From positions 1 to 33,428 of the IMG/VR virus record IMGVR_UViG_3300027848_000061: a DNA stretch of 33,428 bases. One strand, 5' to 3'. This document shows, piece by piece, positions 2,713-16,120 of this stretch. This DNA is from a virus. Each line of letters starts with the position of its first letter. Position 1 is the first letter of the stretch. A program made the position numbers and the translations under genes. Below the pieces are notes generated by a model. The model saw only the letters and a program-made list of their open reading frames with translations. It had not been told where the DNA came from and searched no databases.

Positions 2713-2943
2713 TTACTGACCCAAAGCACTGCGCACTGCGTCGAGGCACGCCTCGTCGTCTTTGCGAGTGATGCGCTTGTGCATGGATGCCGGCAGGGAT
2801 TTGCCAGACAGCCAGCAGATGTCGTCGATCTCGATCTGCTCGTCGAATATGCCAACGTCTGGCTCTGCCTCGTAAGCCGTCGCACATACCAGCACCGGCA
2901 GGCCACCAAAGATGCGGGCCTCGGTTTCGATCTCAATGCTCAT
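2713..2943 (-). CDS. Small acidic hypothetical protein, 76 aa
   Basis: The 76-aa product starts MSIEIETEARIFGGLPVLVC and continues with acidic and aromatic residues (EAEPDVGIFDEQIEIDDICW) before a basic helix (MHKRITRKDDEACLDAVRSAL). This looks like a small folded alpha/beta protein; no family is recognised. GGGAG lies 8 nt before the ATG, inside the shared leader found in four copies in this region. The ATG overlaps the stop of a possible 34-aa ORF. It is surrounded by Ala-rich genes but is not itself Ala-rich, so it may be the functional cargo of a leader cassette. Confidence 0.75.
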   Translation of the reverse strand: MSIEIETEARIFGGLPVLVCATAYEAEPDVGIFDEQIEIDDICWLSGKSLPASMHKRITRKDDEACLDAVRSALGQ

Positions 2944-3044
2944 TTTATATTCTCCCGTAGGCGGTCACGATTGACCTTGTGCAGTCGGTATGAGGCACAG
3001 CGCAGCGTCTTAGGCGGCGTCATAGGCATCGGTGGTGGTGTCAT
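2940..3044 (-). CDS. Possible 34-aa ORF that runs through a leader copy
   Basis: The ATG overlaps the stop of the 3041-3376 gene (ATGA) and the TGA overlaps the ATG of the 2713-2943 gene, so the ORF exactly bridges two genes. Its first codons (Met-Thr-Pro) match those of the helix-turn-helix gene that follows the paralogous C-terminus at 3967, but the rest is Pro-, Thr- and Arg-rich and encoded by the hairpin leader itself. It may be a decayed remnant of that gene fused to a leader, or only a coupling ORF. Confidence 0.3.
   Translation of the reverse strand: MTPPPMPMTPPKTLRCASYRLHKVNRDRLRENIK
2944..2992 (-). promoter_or_regulatory. Leader copy 1: hairpin plus ribosome site, -35 box absent
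   Basis: On the minus strand the segment reads -10-like CATACC, then GCACAAGG, the hairpin GGTCA-ATCG-TGACC (2963-2976), GGGAGAATATAAA and the ATG. It is nearly identical to copy 3 at 3699-3769, but the sequence 17 bp upstream of CATACC is GCCTAA rather than TTGACA, so it probably acts only as an RNA leader, not as a promoter. Confidence 0.6.
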
Positions 3045-3069
3045 GCCCACGAGAAATCCTCACCGAACT
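3040..3069. repeat. 30-bp direct repeat, copy 1 (end of shared C-terminal domain)
   Basis: Identical over 30 bp to 3966-3995. It encodes the last residues (FGEDFSWA) of the domain shared by the proteins at 3041-3376 and 3967-4155. Confidence 0.9.
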
Positions 3070-3376
3070 GTGCCTTGTGGCGGGCGCAATACTCGACCAG
3101 AAACCATTCGGCGTCCGATGCCCGGTAGTCGTCATGGATGGCCTCGCGAATGTCGTTGTCCATGAGCATCGCGGCGGCTGCTAGGTTCGCTTCTGCGAGG
3201 GCGGCGTCGTAGGTGGCGCGGGCGGCATGGTAGGCGGCGTCGTGGGCGGCTGCGGCGCTGGCGGCGGCGGCATGGTAGGCGGCGGCTAGGGCTGCGAGGT
3301 AAGCGGCGGCGGCGGCGGCGCGCGCTTTGTAGAGGGCGTTGTAGCGGGCGTCGTCGGCGGTGATCTTGTCGGTCAT
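3041..3376 (-). CDS. Two-part protein: Ala-rich helix plus IREAI-FGEDFSWA C-terminal domain, 111 aa
   Basis: Residues 10-70 are almost entirely Ala with spaced Tyr, His and Asp (AAYLAALAAAYHAAAASA), a long helical segment. Residues 72-111 form a distinct, non-repetitive domain beginning MDNDIREAIH and ending HKAQFGEDFSWA. That domain is shared, with few changes, by the 62-aa protein at 3967-4155, where it stands almost alone. This gene therefore looks like a fusion of an Ala-rich array member with the small domain. The start has AGGAG about 8 nt upstream, in leader copy 2. No known family is recognised; the domain with Trp-Phe-Leu, Tyr-Cys-Ala-Arg-His and a C-terminal Trp-Ala may be a binding module. 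Confidence 0.75.
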   Translation of the reverse strand: MTDKITADDARYNALYKARAAAAAAYLAALAAAYHAAAASAAAAHDAAYHAARATYDAALAEANLAAAAMLMDNDIREAIHDDYRASDAEWFLVEYCARHKAQFGEDFSWA

Positions 3377-3409
3377 TTTATATTCTCCTGTCGGCGGTCA
3401 TGCTTGACC
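3377..3409 (-). promoter_or_regulatory. Leader copy 2: hairpin plus ribosome site, no promoter
   Basis: The hairpin GGTCA-AGCA-TGACC (3396-3409) is followed on the minus strand by CGCCGACAGGAGAATATAAA and the ATG. The stem is the same as copies 1 and 3 but the loop differs. The preceding gene ends only 7 nt upstream, leaving no room for -35 and -10 boxes, so this copy must work in the RNA. Confidence 0.6.
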
Positions 3410-3416
3410 TAAAAAA

Positions 3417-3698
3417 TCAAAAGGCGAAGGCGGGCTGCTCTGCGGCCAAGGTGAGCGCCTCTGCCACCGCTGCTGCATTTTCCTCAGCTTCGCGGGCGGC
3501 ATCAACGACCGCGTAAGCTGCTTCGCAGATTTCCAGACCGGCATCGAATGCGTCCTCTGCGGCGATAAACCGGGCCACGTTAGCCTTGCTCTTGCTGCGC
3601 TTTACCGCGTTGCGAGCGTGGTTGAGTTCGCGGGCGATTGGTGTGAAGTCGTCCTGCGTCTGGTTGAGGGCGGCGTGTGCTTGTTCGAGGTTGGTCAT
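3417..3698 (-). CDS. Helical Ala/Glu-rich hypothetical protein, 93 aa
   Basis: The start at 3698 (MTNLEQAHAALNQTQDDFTP) is chosen because GGGAG lies about 8 nt upstream in leader copy 3; an upstream in-frame start would fall inside the leader hairpin. The protein is predicted all-helical, with a basic middle (RNAVKRSKSKANVARFIAAE) and a highly acidic, Ala-rich second half (AREAEENAAAVAEALTLAAE). It lacks the Tyr/His-spaced Ala repeats of its neighbours but has the same composition bias. It is the first gene behind the promoter at 3741-3769. Function unknown; a small coiled-coil or DNA-mimic-like protein is possible but unproven. Confidence 0.7.
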   Translation of the reverse strand: MTNLEQAHAALNQTQDDFTPIARELNHARNAVKRSKSKANVARFIAAEDAFDAGLEICEAAYAVVDAAREAEENAAAVAEALTLAAEQPAFAF

Positions 3699-3791
3699 TC
3701 CTATTCTCCCGTAGGCGGTCACGATTGACCTTGTGCAGTCGGTATGAGGCCCAATGGTCCGCCTGTCAACGCCTATTTTATATTAATTAAA
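3699..3791 (-). promoter_or_regulatory. Promoter with UP element plus hairpin leader (copy 3)
   Basis: On the minus strand an 18-bp A/T-only tract (3774-3791, UP-element position) is followed by TTGACA (3764-3769), a 17-bp spacer, CATACC (3741-3746), and then the leader hairpin GGTCA-ATCG-TGACC (3717-3730) and GGGAG before the ATG at 3698. With the usual distance the transcript would begin near 3734, so the hairpin would sit at its extreme 5' end. The A/T tract also encodes the end of the helix-turn-helix gene upstream. Confidence 0.7.
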
Positions 3792-3800
3792 CGCTCGTCC
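3759..3800. repeat. 42-bp perfect direct repeat, copy 1 (UP element and -35 box)
   Basis: Identical to 4527-4568, 768 bp away. It spans the A/T tract and TTGACA of one promoter; weaker similarity continues through the -10 box, hairpin and ribosome site. Confidence 0.95.
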
Positions 3801-3970
3801 GCTTGCGCCAAGAGCATCGCGGTCAGCTTGGCGACAGGGCCGCTGACTTCGCGCTCGCCGCTCTCGAATTGCCTAATGGCGCGGCTAGTCTTGAGCCCTA
3901 GCGCCTCAGCCATCGCGTTCTGCGATAGGCCAAGGTCGCGGCGCGCATCTTTGAATTGGGTTGGGGTCAT
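3773..3970 (-). CDS. XRE-type helix-turn-helix protein, 65 aa
   Basis: The sequence MTPTQFKDARRDLGLSQNAM followed by AEALGLKTSRAIRQFESGER is a standard XRE/Cro helix-turn-helix (scaffold helix, helix 2, turn, recognition helix), with the typical ending REVSGPVAKLTAMLL. It should bind an operator as a dimer. The start at 3970 overlaps the TGA of the upstream gene (ATGA); an ATG 6 nt earlier is also possible. Its last five codons are formed by the UP-like A/T tract of the downstream promoter. It is clearly related to the protein at 11954-12160 on the other strand. A regulator of the early promoters in this array is the likely role. Confidence 0.85.
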   Translation of the reverse strand: MTPTQFKDARRDLGLSQNAMAEALGLKTSRAIRQFESGEREVSGPVAKLTAMLLAQADERLINIK

Positions 3971-3995
3971 GCCCACGAGAAATCCTCACCGAACT
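3966..3995. repeat. 30-bp direct repeat, copy 2
   Basis: Identical to 3040-3069; encodes the end of the shared C-terminal domain in the 62-aa protein. In both copies the stop overlaps an ATG beginning Met-Thr-Pro. Confidence 0.9.
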
Positions 3996-4155
3996 TAGCC
4001 TTGTGCCGCGCGCAGTATTCAGCCAAAAACCAAGCGGCGTCAGTGGCCCTCGCGTCCGAATGGATGGCCTCACGAATATCATCGTCCATAAAGATTGACG
4101 CTGCTTCCAGATTTTTGATGGATTGTGCTACGTAGATGTTATTTTGGTTTATCAT
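3967..4155 (-). CDS. Small protein consisting mainly of the IREAI-FGEDFSWA domain, 62 aa
   Basis: After a short head (MINQNNIYVAQSIKNLEAAS) the protein is the same domain as residues 72-111 of the 111-aa protein: DDDIREAIHSDARATDAAWF, then LAEYCARHKAKFGEDFSWA. About 28 of 36 positions agree between the two. The start at 4155 lies one base after the preceding stop, with GGGA about 9 nt upstream; the longer frame from 4206 would overlap the neighbour and has no site. Conservation of the domain at amino-acid level next to an Ala-rich fusion suggests it is the functional unit. Family not recognised. Confidence 0.75.
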   Translation of the reverse strand: MINQNNIYVAQSIKNLEAASIFMDDDIREAIHSDARATDAAWFLAEYCARHKAKFGEDFSWA

Positions 4156-4156
4156 A

Positions 4157-4465
4157 TCAATATTCCCATTCTGCGCGGTCTGCCGAAACCCATTCGCCGC
4201 GACCATTGCGTGTCATCGCGCTAGCGCCTGCATTCGTGCGGCTGTAAGCATGTAATGTGGGCTTAACTACTTTGGTAGCTACAGGTGCGTTAAACGATGC
4301 TACCTGCTCGGCGGTGATTGTGGTTACGATAGCGCCTGATGAGCGGATAAGGTCTGTTCCGTTTTTTGCGAGATAAACAGTCGACGTAAATTTCGCGTCA
4401 GGGGTTGTGATAGTCCAGCCCATTGCGTCTTTGCGGATGGTGCCTGCTTCGGTAATAATTGTCAT
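4157..4465 (-). CDS. Hypothetical protein, 102 aa, first gene behind promoter copy 4
   Basis: The ATG at 4465 follows AGGAG by 8 nt inside the fourth leader copy; the longer frame to 4537 would run through the promoter. The protein begins MTIITEAGTIRKDAMGWTIT and has a beta-rich first half (TPDAKFTSTVYLAKNGTDLI), a Thr/Val-rich middle and a basic, aromatic C-terminus (NGRGEWVSADRAEWEY). It is not Ala-rich and its base composition is more AT-rich than the neighbouring Ala-rich genes. No family recognised. It is coupled to the 62-aa protein (1-nt gap) and through it to the XRE regulator. Confidence 0.75.
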   Translation of the reverse strand: MTIITEAGTIRKDAMGWTITTPDAKFTSTVYLAKNGTDLIRSSGAIVTTITAEQVASFNAPVATKVVKPTLHAYSRTNAGASAMTRNGRGEWVSADRAEWEY

Positions 4466-4559
4466 TTTACATTCTCCTGTCGGCGGCCTTGATTGGCCTT
4501 GTGCAATCCTTATGCGGCACGGCGTGCCGCCTGTCAACGCCTATTTTATATTAATTAAA
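4466..4559 (-). promoter_or_regulatory. Promoter with UP element plus hairpin leader (copy 4)
   Basis: On the minus strand: A/T-only tract (4542-4559), TTGACA (4532-4537), 17-bp spacer, CATAAG (4509-4514), leader hairpin GGCC-AATCAA-GGCC (4485-4498), AGGAG and the ATG at 4465. The spacer contains the palindrome GCGGCAC-GCC-GTGCCGC, a possible operator between the -35 and -10 boxes. Compared with the other leaders the stem has changed on both sides (T-A to C-G), keeping pairing. Confidence 0.75.
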
Positions 4560-4568
4560 CGCTCGTCC
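4527..4568. repeat. 42-bp perfect direct repeat, copy 2
   Basis: Identical to 3759-3800. Here the A/T tract lies in non-coding DNA after a 19-codon ORF instead of inside the XRE gene. Confidence 0.95.
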
Positions 4569-4627
4569 TAGCCCCACTGGTCAGCCAGCGCGACCAGCAG
4601 TGCTACGGCTATTTCGGTTTTCGTCAT
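4568..4627 (-). CDS. 19-codon micro-ORF with a conserved ribosome site
   Basis: MTKTEIAVALLVALADQWG is preceded by GGAGCAAACGAC, the same box found before two Ala-rich genes, and its ATG overlaps the stop of the 79-aa Ala-rich gene. The product is hydrophobic enough in the middle to be a membrane peptide. It ends where the duplicated promoter begins. It may be real, or the truncated start of a former Ala-rich paralogue cut off by the promoter duplication. Confidence 0.45.
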   Translation of the reverse strand: MTKTEIAVALLVALADQWG

Positions 4628-4863
4628 GTCGTTTGCTCCTTGGCATCGCGGGCTGCGACGTAAGCGGCGCAAGCGGCTTCGGCTGCGTGGTGGGCGTCGT
4701 GGTAGGCTTCGCGGGTGGCGCGGTAAGTTTCGGCGTCGGCGGCTAGGGCTGCGAGGTAAGCGGCGGCGGCGAAAACGGCGGCTTTGTTGGCGTCGTCGGC
4801 TGCGTCGTAGGCAGCGCGGGCAGCGAGGGCTGCGGCGGCGGTCTGGTCGGTGATGTCGGTCAT
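4624..4863 (-). CDS. Alanine-rich helical protein, 79 aa, first gene of the leftward operon
   Basis: Starts MTDITDQTAAAALAARAAYD and keeps an Ala-dominated pattern with spaced Tyr, Asp, His and Arg to the end (AAEAACAAYVAARDAKEQTT). It resembles the proteins at 2397-2693 and 3041-3376 in start, composition and spacing and shares the ribosome-site box GGAGCAAACGAC with the first. It is the first gene leftward from the divergent control region with the operator-like palindromes, so it is probably expressed very early. No domain recognised. A long amphipathic helix could coat a partner or membrane, but nothing in the sequence decides this. Confidence 0.7.
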   Translation of the reverse strand: MTDITDQTAAAALAARAAYDAADDANKAAVFAAAAYLAALAADAETYRATREAYHDAHHAAEAACAAYVAARDAKEQTT

Positions 4864-4899
4864 GTCGTTTGCTCCTGTGTGCGTTGCTGATGCAGATCA

Positions 4900-4948
4900 T
4901 TTAGCAAAGCTAAAACATCATGTCCAGCCTTTTGCTAAACATTTTAGC
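4900..4948. promoter_or_regulatory. Two operator-like palindromes in the divergent early control region
   Basis: TTTAGC-AAA-GCTAAA (4900-4914) and GCTAAA-CAT-TTTAGC (4934-4948) are perfect 6+6 palindromes built from the same hexamer in opposite order, 19 bp apart, between the leftward Ala-rich operon and the rightward Cro-like gene. A minus-strand promoter may use TGGACA (4920-4925) with TAAATG 17 bp on, overlapping the first site. A regulator encoded nearby (4984-5196 or 3773-3970) is the natural ligand. Confidence 0.6.
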
Positions 4949-4983
4949 TTTATTTTAGACGGCGGGCGCGCTATGGTGGCTGC

Positions 4984-5196
4984 ATGACATTGCACGAGTA
5001 TCTAAAGGCCGAACAAGCCCCGACACTTTCATCTCTTGCGGCGTCCCTAGGCGTCTCGGTCGGCAGGCTATCGCAGTTGCGCAGATCGACCAAGTGGCCT
5101 GCGCGCCTCGCCCTAAAGCTAGAGCAAGCTACCGGCGGTGCCATCAATGCGGCGGTCATCTCCGAAATCGTGGCAGAATGCAGGCACACAGCGTGA
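4984..5196 (+). CDS. Cro/YdaS-like helix-turn-helix protein, 70 aa
   Basis: The sequence HEYLKAEQAPTLSSLAASLG followed by VSVGRLSQLRR is a Cro-type helix-turn-helix, of the short YdaS-like kind used by phages to bind operators. Its C-terminal half is helical and may dimerise. The ATG has only a weak GGTGG upstream, and with the operator so close the transcript may have a very short leader. It begins the rightward unit facing the Ala-rich operon, and its stop overlaps the GTG of the next gene. The likely job is control of the divergent promoters through the palindromes at 4900-4948. Confidence 0.8.
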   Translation: MTLHEYLKAEQAPTLSSLAASLGVSVGRLSQLRRSTKWPARLALKLEQATGGAINAAVISEIVAECRHTA

Positions 5197-7120: not shown

Positions 7121-7142
7121 GAATCTCTCCGATAAGTAGGGT

Positions 7143-7192
7143 GGCAGACTGTCGCACTCGGTCTGCCAGCGAGTAACGCGGGTCTAGCCCGC
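7143..7192 (-). promoter_or_regulatory. Two hairpins between SSB-like and exonuclease genes
   Basis: GGCAGAC (7143-7149) pairs with GTCTGCC (7161-7167), and GCGGG (7178-7182) pairs with CCCGC (7188-7192). They fill the only sizeable gap in this operon (7121-7202). No T-run follows, so partial termination or an RNA processing/stability role is more likely than full termination. Confidence 0.45.
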
Positions 7193-13243: not shown

Positions 13244-14542
13244 ATGAAAGACACTGAAACAGAAACCCTTGGGACTATAAAGGTGGACTACCGCAAGGTT
13301 GCCGACCTCATCCCATATGCAGCCAACAGCCGCACGCATAGCGACGAGCAAGTGGCGCAGATCGCCGCAAGCATTTTTGAGTTTGGATTTACTAACCCGA
13401 TCCTAACCGATGGCGGCAATGGCATCATTGCTGGGCATGGACGGCTGATGGCAGCGCGCAAGCTAGGTCTTGGCGAAGTGCCGACGATCTCGCTTGCAGG
13501 GCTTACGGCAGCTCAGAAACGAGCCTACGTGATCGCCGATAATAAGCTGGCGCTTAATGCAGGCTGGGACGCGGAGTTGCTATCGAGCGAAATTGCAGGG
13601 CTTGGCGATGAAGGCTTTGACCTGTCCTTGCTGGGCTTCAATGAGGATGAGTTAGCTGCGTTGCTGGTCGATAAGACCGAAGGCTTGACCGATCCTGACG
13701 AGATTCCCGAGGTGCCTGCCGATCCGGCGACCGTGCTTGGCGACGTGTGGCTGCTGGGGCGGCATCGGCTGATGTGCGGGGATAGCACCAGCATTGACGC
13801 GGTTGACAAGCTGATGGATGGGCAGAAGCCTAACACAATGGTGACAGACCCGCCTTATGGGGTGAAACTAGACCAGTCGTGGCGCGATAAGGCTCTAGGA
13901 GACAAAGCGTTAGGCAAGGGAAATTCGCACCTTGTCGATAATGACGACCGCGCAGATTGGACGGAGGTTTGGTCTCTGTTCGAAGGTAATGTTGCCTACG
14001 TCTGGCATGCGTCATCCTTTACGGATGTTTTGATGGGTAGTTTGCGCAACGCAGGAATTGAGCCGACGCAGCTGATCATTTGGAATAATTCGGTTATGGT
14101 CATGGGGCGGAGTGACTATCACTTTAAGCACGAACCTTGCTGGTATGCGATCAGAAAAGGTCAGAGCCACAATTGGAAGGGCGACCGTAAGCAGACGACC
14201 ATTTGGGATGCCGCCGCGCCCAATCACATCATGGGCGGCTCCAAGGAAGAAAAGACAAGCCATCCGACCCAAAAGCCAGCCAGCCTTTACGAAAAGGCAT
14301 ACCTAAATCACACAAACCCCGGCGAGTATGTATATGAGCCGTTCGGCGGCAGCGGCACGTCCGTCGTGGTTTGTGAAAAGATCGGCAGGCAGTCTTTGAC
14401 AATGGAACTCGACCCCAAGTATTGCGACGTGATCGTTACGCGCTGGCAGAACTTCACCGGCCAGCAAGCTGTTCATGGCGAAACAGGCGCTGCGTTTAAT
14501 GATATTAAGAATCCTTTATATGCCAAGCAAGAGGCGACATAA
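13244..14542 (+). CDS. ParB-like/DNA methyltransferase fusion, 432 aa
   Basis: The N-terminal 130 residues are a ParB/Srx-like domain (IPYAANSRTHSDEQVAQIAA, IIAGHGRLMAARKLG at 61-75). The rest is a beta-type methylase with DPPYG (202-206), SHPTQKP (339-345) and EPFGGSGTS (365-373). This fusion is widespread in phages and prophages; it modifies adenine or cytosine N positions, and the ParB part may add DNA binding or nuclease/CTP-related activity. Length is normal. It directly precedes the small terminase (1-nt overlap), linking modification to packaging. It is the second methylase within 2.4 kb and need not share specificity with the first. Confidence 0.92.
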   Translation: MKDTETETLGTIKVDYRKVADLIPYAANSRTHSDEQVAQIAASIFEFGFTNPILTDGGNGIIAGHGRLMAARKLGLGEVPTISLAGLTAAQKRAYVIADNKLALNAGWDAELLSSEIAGLGDEGFDLSLLGFNEDELAALLVDKTEGLTDPDEIPEVPADPATVLGDVWLLGRHRLMCGDSTSIDAVDKLMDGQKPNTMVTDPPYGVKLDQSWRDKALGDKALGKGNSHLVDNDDRADWTEVWSLFEGNVAYVWHASSFTDVLMGSLRNAGIEPTQLIIWNNSVMVMGRSDYHFKHEPCWYAIRKGQSHNWKGDRKQTTIWDAAAPNHIMGGSKEEKTSHPTQKPASLYEKAYLNHTNPGEYVYEPFGGSGTSVVVCEKIGRQSLTMELDPKYCDVIVTRWQNFTGQQAVHGETGAAFNDIKNPLYAKQEAT

Positions 14543-14880: not shown

Positions 14881-16120
14881 AGTTTCGCTTACCGCGCCAC
14901 AGGATGATTTTGTCCATGCAACAGAGCAATTCCCCGCGCTAGTAGCAGGTTTCGGCGCGGGGAAATCGCACGCTGCTATCTGGCGCGCGCTACGGATGAA
15001 GCTCACCTATCCTCGGCAAGACGTTGCCTACTATCTGCCCACTTACGATCTTGTAACGCGCATGGCGATCCCGCGCTTCGAGGAGCAGATAGAGAGCCTC
15101 AAACTGCCGTTCAAAACCAACAAAAACGACAGCCTAATCGCTATTGGTGGCTTCGGAACCATCATCATGCGGACAATGGACAACCCTGCGCGCATCGTGG
15201 CCTATGAGGTGGCAGATAGCCTTGTCGATGAGCTTGATACGCTGCCGACCGAAAAGGCACGCGAGGTATGGAACAAGGTCATTGCCCGCAACCGGCAGAA
15301 GAAGCCAGACGGATCGCTAAACACAGTGGGCGTTGCCACCACACCAGAGGGCTTCCGTTTCGTCTATGACCGCTGGAAGAAAAACCCCTCGGAGGGGTAT
15401 CGGCTGATTAAAGCCTCCACCATGTCTAACGCGGCAAATCTGCCTGATGGCTACATCGACAGCCTGCGGGCGTCCTATTCGTCCAGCTTGTTAGCCGCCT
15501 ATCTCGACGGCGAGTTCGTCAACCTAACCGCTGGCAGCGTCTACCCAGAGTTCGACCGCAAGCTGAATTGCGTCTTCGAGACGATACAGCCGCGCGAACC
15601 GCTGCACATTGGCCTAGACTTTAACGTCAACAACATGAGCGCAGCCGTGTGCGTCATCCGTAACGGCAACCCGTTTGCGCTGGATGAGCTAACACGGCTT
15701 AGGGATACGCCAAACATGATACGGGCGATCCAAGAGCGTTACCAAGGCCATGCCATCACAGTTTATCCCGATGCCTCTGGCGGTGCGACCAAGAGCGTCA
15801 ACGCCAGCCTGTCCGACATCACGCTTCTGCGAAGCGCAAACTTCACGGTCCTTGCGCCAAGCAAGAACCCCGCTGTCAAAGACAGGGTGCTATCGCTTAA
15901 CTTGATGATCCACAACCAGGGCGCAAGACGGCTGCTAGTTAACCCAGACAAATGCCCGAATCTCATTGAAGGTCTTGAGCGCCAAGCCTACAACAAAGCA
16001 GGCGAACCCGATAAAACCGCAGGGCTAGACCACTTGAACGATGCAATCGGCTACCTTGTGACTTATAAATATGGTATTGGTCGAGGAACAGTTTCTTTTG
16101 CAAAAATCGCGGGGGTTTGA
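14873..16120 (+). CDS. terL: Terminase large subunit, 415 aa
   Basis: The packaging motor with ATPase and nuclease parts. Walker A is GFGAGKS (26-32), Walker B is DSLVDELD (115-122) with catalytic Glu120, and a coupling-type TTPEG follows (156-160). The RNase H-like nuclease has HIGLDFN with Asp249, YPDASGG with Asp300 and LDHLNDAIGY with His387 and Asp390. All expected residues are present. Length is on the short side of normal. Its ATG overlaps the small-terminase stop region and its stop abuts the portal start, so the three genes are coupled. Confidence 0.93.
   Translation: MLEVSLTAPQDDFVHATEQFPALVAGFGAGKSHAAIWRALRMKLTYPRQDVAYYLPTYDLVTRMAIPRFEEQIESLKLPFKTNKNDSLIAIGGFGTIIMRTMDNPARIVAYEVADSLVDELDTLPTEKAREVWNKVIARNRQKKPDGSLNTVGVATTPEGFRFVYDRWKKNPSEGYRLIKASTMSNAANLPDGYIDSLRASYSSSLLAAYLDGEFVNLTAGSVYPEFDRKLNCVFETIQPREPLHIGLDFNVNNMSAAVCVIRNGNPFALDELTRLRDTPNMIRAIQERYQGHAITVYPDASGGATKSVNASLSDITLLRSANFTVLAPSKNPAVKDRVLSLNLMIHNQGARRLLVNPDKCPNLIEGLERQAYNKAGEPDKTAGLDHLNDAIGYLVTYKYGIGRGTVSFAKIAGV

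Follow-up and report, generated by a model that had tools for sequence, protein, structure and literature searches.

A leader repeated before four small genes of a siphophage and its possible derivation from a reused acr-aca-like regulatory cassette

The window (the whole 33,428-base stretch, IMG/VR virus record IMGVR_UViG_3300027848_000061) is from a siphophage, with genes for portal, large terminase, tape measure, Sak4, a RecE-like exonuclease, and SSB. On its minus strand, a 34-nt leader (AGGYCAANCNNGRCCGCCNACRGGAGAAT...) consisting of a 14-nt dyad or hairpin, a Shine-Dalgarno (SD) sequence, and the ATG is repeated before four genes. We estimate a probability of about 0.5 that one cassette of promoter, operator, and ribosome binding site, in an early region resembling the operons that pair anti-CRISPR (acr) and aca genes, gave rise to all four leaders as two complete and two truncated copies. 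The four-fold repetition itself is real, far beyond chance, and unusual for this phage group, as judged from all SD-bearing starts compared within each genome. These four are the strongest set in the window, which has only one other repeated start, a different and shorter leader, and ~100 related phage loci have at most isolated two-copy starts, several of them merely duplicated coding sequence. The copies and their parts are as follows, with hairpins written 5' to 3'.

4463-4568, minus strand: copy 4, full cassette, with an AT-rich block upstream, SD AGGAG, and the ATG at 4465
4532-4537, minus strand: putative -35 of copy 4, TTGACA
4514-4530, minus strand: spacer dyad of copy 4, GCGGCACGCCGTGCCGC
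4509-4514, minus strand: putative weak -10 of copy 4, CATAAG
4485-4498, minus strand: hairpin of copy 4, GGCCAATCAAGGCC
3695-3800, minus strand: copy 3, full cassette, with the upstream block as in copy 4, SD GGGAG, and the ATG at 3698
3764-3769, minus strand: putative -35 of copy 3, TTGACA
3746-3762, minus strand: imperfect spacer dyad of copy 3
3741-3746, minus strand: putative -10 of copy 3, CATACC
3717-3730, minus strand: hairpin of copy 3, GGTCAATCGTGACC
3377-3410, minus strand: copy 2, leader core without the promoter part, with hairpin GGTCAAGCATGACC at 3396-3409 and SD
2944-2998, minus strand: copy 1, truncated cassette without the -35, with hairpin GGTCAATCGTGACC at 2963-2976

All four copies lie in a minus-strand block of small genes that runs from 4863 down to 2182. 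The first-pass annotation had located four 14-nt hairpins at a constant distance from the start codons of four different genes, and both observations are confirmed: each hairpin is followed by GCCKACRGGAGAAT, with the ATG 18-19 nt past the hairpin end. Coding sequences behind the leaders differ from the first codons on, such that homology ends at the start codon. From the -10 region through the SD, copies 1 and 3 are identical at 51 of 52 nt, indicating that they are recent duplicates and leaving at most three independent copies. The upstream side of copy 1 is joined, where the -35 would be, to DNA resembling alanine-repeat coding sequence. Of the two copies described earlier as promoterless, copy 2 is so and copy 1 lacks a -35, but copy 1 retains the -10 and start-site region of copy 3.

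Copies 3 and 4 are cassettes of ~100 nt whose first 42 positions, including an AT-rich stretch and TTGACA, are identical. In both, the order is TTGACA, a 17-nt spacer containing a dyad, a weak -10 (CATACC and CATAAG, respectively), the hairpin, the SD, and the ATG. The spacer dyad of copy 4, between -35 and -10, is perfect, with 7-bp arms (GCGGCAC and GTGCCGC around GCC), and 2% of shuffled cassettes attain such symmetry. In the same register, six of eight pairs are kept in copy 3, two of them through double-sided changes. The first 28 nt of copy 3 also encode the C-terminus of a helix-turn-helix (HTH) gene (DERLINIK-stop), and those same 28 nt are non-coding in copy 4. Taken as a series, two full copies, one truncated copy, and one core-only copy suggest recombination of the cassette with the start codon as its 3' border.

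The genes behind the copies are listed from copy 4 to copy 1.

4157-4465, minus strand: gene D, 102 aa, without known family, first gene behind copy 4
3967-4155, minus strand: AcrIC5-like protein, 62 aa, second gene of the copy 4 operon
3773-3970, minus strand: HTH_3 (XRE) protein, 65 aa, third gene of the copy 4 operon
3417-3698, minus strand: gene A, 93 aa, without known family, behind copy 3
3041-3376, minus strand: gene B, 111 aa, alanine-rich N-terminal part and AcrIC5-like C-terminal domain, behind copy 2
2713-2943, minus strand: gene C, 76 aa, phrog_18992 (unknown function), behind copy 1

Gene content points in the same direction and had been missed in the first pass, which noted neither the AcrIC5-like and HTH genes between copies 4 and 3 nor the second AcrIC5-like domain behind copy 2. 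Gene D, the AcrIC5-like gene, and the HTH_3 gene form a tight operon led by copy 4; copy 3 starts in the 3' end of the HTH gene, and copy 2 begins ~7 nt past the gene A stop codon. The 62-aa protein matches Pfam PF22147 (AcrIC5) with 39.1 bits (cut-off 27) and the AcrIC5 crystal structure 7yhr in phmmer (E 7.5e-4). Its predicted model (pLDDT 71) also has 7yhr as the clear top match in Foldseek (TM 0.62, 40% identity), at an E of 0.15, a weak value but one to be expected at this small protein size. Residues 66-108 of gene B, its C-terminal 43, match PF22147 with 35.1 bits and align with the 62-aa protein. These two matches are not background, since the family had no match in 385 sampled genomes, 14 controls, and 45 other phage records. 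The HTH_3 gene is directly downstream of the AcrIC5-like gene, with an ATGA overlap. Its product matches Pfam HTH_3 with 30.7 bits (cut-off 23), has Aca3 (9vt3, E 0.013) as its best natural match in PDB, and resembles generic XRE folds in structure comparison, where Aca2 and Aca10 are among the matches; its NCBIfam matches include no Aca model. We consider it a candidate Aca-type autorepressor and, by position, gene D a candidate anti-defence gene.

Comparison with the nearest relative shows that the leader is exchangeable, which speaks for the cassette reading. This relative is a 5.2-kb fragment (L008) that is 96% identical to the window over 4.4 kb, departs from it at an ATG near 4623-4627, and then encodes a relative of gene B; it stops before the four-copy region. 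The gene B relative has a different, hairpin-free leader, CAAGGAGCAAACGACATG, which is also found in the window, ahead of the genes that start at 2693, 4627, and 4863. Genes of this plastic region therefore swap starts. Separately, alanine-rich repeat proteins of the AAYDAA type, usually started from the leader CAGGAGCAAACGACATG, are encoded at 2397-2693, 3041-3376, and 4624-4863 of the window (minus strand) and at 4442-5236 of L008, and the genes differ in number and length between the two.

The promoter cassette, the truncations, the dyads, and the gene content are together most simply accounted for by a reused acr-aca-like cassette. Host RNA polymerase would start a few nucleotides before the hairpin and so place it at the extreme 5' end of the mRNA. 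From copy 3, transcription would continue through genes A, B, and C, with copies 2 and 1 as copied translation starts for genes B and C. Binding of the HTH protein to the spacer dyad, and possibly also to the leader dyad in DNA or RNA form, would turn the genes off once an early burst is over, in the manner of Aca proteins. We infer that the AcrIC5-like protein would inhibit CRISPR and that the HTH protein would be the repressor. Genes behind the four copies would then be candidates for anti-defence: if the reading is true, the cassette identifies a set of small phage genes under joint regulation with an anti-CRISPR-like gene, and the nameless genes A, C, and D become such candidates. A bolder version, which we hold to be quite unlikely, puts four anti-defence genes under the 65-residue Aca-like HTH protein, acting through promoter dyads as DNA and through 5' hairpins beside the SD as RNA, with copied leaders keeping this control where the promoter was lost. 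RNA-level control at the hairpin would possibly be the most direct route for the protein to act through copy 2. If such dual control is true, the leader could be used as a tag for finding unknown anti-defence genes.

Several observations weigh against the cassette reading. A scan for consensus sigma-70 promoters called none at the cassettes because the -10 hexamers are poor, so the promoters of copies 3 and 4 are our reading by eye. The spacer dyad of copy 3 is imperfect, and its kept pairs have a chance probability of ~0.17. Spacer and leader dyads differ in sequence; in known acr-aca promoters, second repeats resemble the first. The HTH protein is a generic XRE domain for which no Aca family can be named. 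Small phage proteins with AcrIC5-like domains are common, including those of gut phages and microviruses, so the AcrIC5-like proteins here are candidate CRISPR inhibitors. Last, the cassette was found in no second genome. Searches of viral contigs with exact and degenerate patterns of the leader DNA returned nothing beyond single hits or chance matches within unrelated sequence, and protein searches of viral contigs with gene D, the AcrIC5-like protein, and gene C also found no relatives. Many related loci were recovered with Sak4 and lysin, none with the leader, and BLASTN of the cassette against phages gave no meaningful match. Genome contigs yielded one distant Sak4 only, and AcrIC5 was found in none of 385 genomes of that contig's class, hence no further acr-aca loci were available for comparison.

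Two side observations touch on these points. Small AcrIC5-like domains (LMDDELRE.LHA.LAPC.EQEFFDAY..AH..K.GEEF) occur in unannotated human-gut phage records (L182 1734-2156, L183 1968-2174, and L184 1959-2141); the domain seems to extend beyond what its anti-CRISPR name implies, and not all members need be CRISPR inhibitors. The related phage G019 has a two-copy promoter-leader before two small genes (L085 at 12587 in minus-strand count and at 15514 on the plus strand; the same in L028, L029, and L030), with TTGATT/TTGACG and a 17-nt spacer containing a dyad TGCG..CGCA, in parallel to the window cassette.

The first-pass annotation had centered on the hairpin. It listed stems GGTCA/TGACC three times and GGCC/GGCC once, took the paired change as a sign of selection for pairing, and concluded that the element must act at the RNA level. 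The stems are present as described, but copies 1 and 3 are one observation, so the three-fold stem represents at most two independent ones. Copy 4 has four changes in 14 nt; one pair has changed from T-A to C-G, and the innermost pair is broken (A-A). Selection for pairing does not follow from this pattern: covariation as good as that observed occurred in 95 of 500 shuffles (not significant), and random substitution at the same four columns gave one such paired change in 34% of trials. Neither is an RNA-level role necessary, because the spacer dyad of copies 3 and 4 has the same kind of paired changes and lies upstream of the predicted transcript start, where they would speak for a DNA site. 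The leader dyad could be a DNA operator, its paired change may likewise reflect a DNA site, and the copies could be relics of a duplicated promoter cassette. Paired changes in the hairpin thus do not prove action at the RNA level.

The alternative that survives best, which we consider possible but improbable, is that the hairpin has no function. An efficient SD leader would have been duplicated with or without its promoter, and the 5-bp stem would be a chance feature passed on with it, in copies too little diverged to have lost it. Stems of 5 bp are present in 11-19% of shuffled leaders of the same composition and in 24 of 165 (15%) SD-bearing genes from seven phages of the family, invariant columns span stem and non-stem positions alike, and the broken pair of copy 4 also fits. 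Hairpin-free leaders evidently suffice elsewhere: the gene B relative manages with one, and CAGGAGCAAACGACATG, another repeated leader in the window, has no hairpin and follows gene duplication. On the other hand, at least 4 bp are kept in all four copies despite the four changes of copy 4, and the unrelated coding sequences behind the leaders mean that this is not plain gene duplication.

We are rather doubtful that the hairpin is an RNA-level element that, at the 5' end of the mRNA or inside it, guards against decay, keeps the SD open, or binds a factor other than the HTH protein. The isolated 14-mers, directly before the SD, have predicted folding energies of -4.7 to -6.1 kcal/mol, and a hairpin is present in copy 2, which is promoterless and lies between two genes of one operon. 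But the stability of local leaders exceeds that of shuffles by little on average (z -0.6 to -2.1); with 40 nt of coding sequence added, they fold no better than shuffles, and in the longer minimum-energy folds of copies 2 and 3, the 5' arm of the hairpin pairs with the start codon instead. Besides the nonsignificant covariation, a covariance-model search of the leader against Rfam had no match up to E 5. No intrinsic terminators were found on the minus strand at any leader hairpin, and the hairpin pattern, with two mismatches allowed, was little or no commoner than a reversed control in 25 records. A start-codon switch was also considered: pairing of the GGTCA arm with AUGACC is possible at the starts of genes A and B, not C or D, and for this reason the switch was not adopted. 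The leader hairpin may matter, and the present data fall short of establishing it; that a phage factor binds the repeated leader is a sensible idea.

It is very unlikely that the dyads are operators of another repressor, such as the YdaS/Cro-like HTH protein encoded at 4984-5196, and the cassettes ordinary early promoters under a lysogeny switch. This second small HTH gene, whose YdaS match is weak, is divergent and nearby, with TTTAGCAAAGCTAAA in the intergenic region, but this operator-like sequence is unlike both cassette dyads, and the HTH gene at 3773-3970 sits within the operon headed by copy 4. In its own right, the divergent intergenic region (4863-5196) has TTTAGCAAAGCTAAA as a perfect palindrome at 4900-4914, with related half-sites beside the HTH gene, and is a possible lysis-lysogeny or early switch. 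Hardly credible is a mimic of CRISPR repeats (a small RNA anti-CRISPR, Racr) in the leader: the neighborhood is Acr-like and Racrs are known in phages (PMC10651486), but every copy of the element ends in an SD suitably spaced from an ATG, and the element has no Rfam match of any kind with E up to 5.

Elsewhere in the window, an inverted repeat (GGCAGAC..GTCTGCC) at 7121-7180 on the minus strand is just upstream of the SD at the start of the RecE-like exonuclease gene. In L009/L010 (L010 at 11613, plus strand), the start of the RecE-like exonuclease likewise has an inverted repeat before its SD, of other sequence (GATATC..GATATC). At 13244-14542 on the plus strand is a DNA methyltransferase fused to a ParB-like nuclease domain (phrog_498 plus ParB families).

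Relative to known systems, a reused acr-aca-like cassette has its nearest counterparts in gene content among acr-aca operons. AcrIC5 is an experimentally shown inhibitor of type I-C CRISPR that was found with aca1 and has relatives in Proteobacteria, Firmicutes, and Actinobacteria (PMC7913775). In known acr-aca operons, a small HTH gene follows acr, and autorepression by its product works through an inverted repeat within the core promoter (PMC9410906). As in AcrIC5 with aca1 and in operons with the HTH_3-type Aca3, 5, 6, 7, and 9, the window has an AcrIC5-like gene followed by an overlapping small HTH gene. There is a homologue of a known anti-CRISPR (by PF22147 and, in sequence and fold, by 7yhr, within a broad family), an HTH gene directly downstream in the same operon, and a putative core-promoter inverted repeat. 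The window differs in that the cassette is reused within one locus before further genes, its second dyad is unlike the first, and its HTH protein cannot be placed in an Aca family. Among archaeal viruses, SIRV2 included, a single regulatory sequence is common to acr, aca, and further small early genes whose coding parts differ (PMC11065993). Genes of the window likewise share a regulatory sequence before differing coding sequences, whereas the archaeal promoters (TATA/BRE) come without an SD or hairpin leader. If the cassette reading is true, a bacterial siphophage shows the principle of the archaeal viruses, that anti-defence genes can be found via a shared regulatory sequence.

Promoter early stem-loops (PeSLs) of T4-type phages are reportedly repeated cassettes of promoter and stem-loop in hyperplastic small-gene regions, are linked to gene shuffling, and are named as promoter-terminator composites. 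Relative to the PeSLs as described, the stem in the window is downstream of the putative promoter and before the SD, without a T-run and without a terminator-like site on the minus strand. The HTH repressor Aca2 reportedly, in 2024 work by Birkholz, also binds RNA stem-loops near ribosome binding sites. Such dual binding would explain the presence of dyads in promoter DNA together with a hairpin beside the SD. Aca2, however, has ~125 aa and is of another HTH class, and RNA binding by the 65-aa protein of the window is conjectural. If dual control were true, this small HTH protein would offer a case for control through both DNA and RNA.

In layout, the closest system is the SAS/ESAS of cluster K mycobacteriophages, which is nearly the same, counter to the earlier statement that no named element has this form (PMC3203893, PMC11373665). 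SAS/ESAS is a repeated AGGAG-containing sequence a few nucleotides before the ATG of small non-structural genes of different families, and only a subset of SAS carries the upstream part. The ESAS of Adephagia has -35 and -10 hexamers 17-18 bp apart and an inverted repeat that may be a repressor site (PMC3203893, PMC11373665). The discoverers of ESAS doubted RNA hairpins, because the deviations within the two arms offer no support for pairing. The leader copies are similar in being repeated AGGAG-type SD starts before small genes with the upstream part in some only. In contrast, the 13-bp consensus GGGATAGGAGCCC is absent from the window, whose copies read CGACAGGAGAATR or CTACGGGAGAATA with only AGGAG/GGGAG in common; inverted repeats in that system are imperfect, of 17 bp, and upstream of the SAS, and arms here are 4-5 bp in the leader and 7 bp in the spacer. 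The window has only four copies, the phages are unrelated, and the window adds AcrIC5-like and HTH neighbors and a second dyad between promoter and SD. Because sequence and repeat length differ, the window cassette, as read here from sequence, is closest to SAS/ESAS as a functional analogue rather than as a member.

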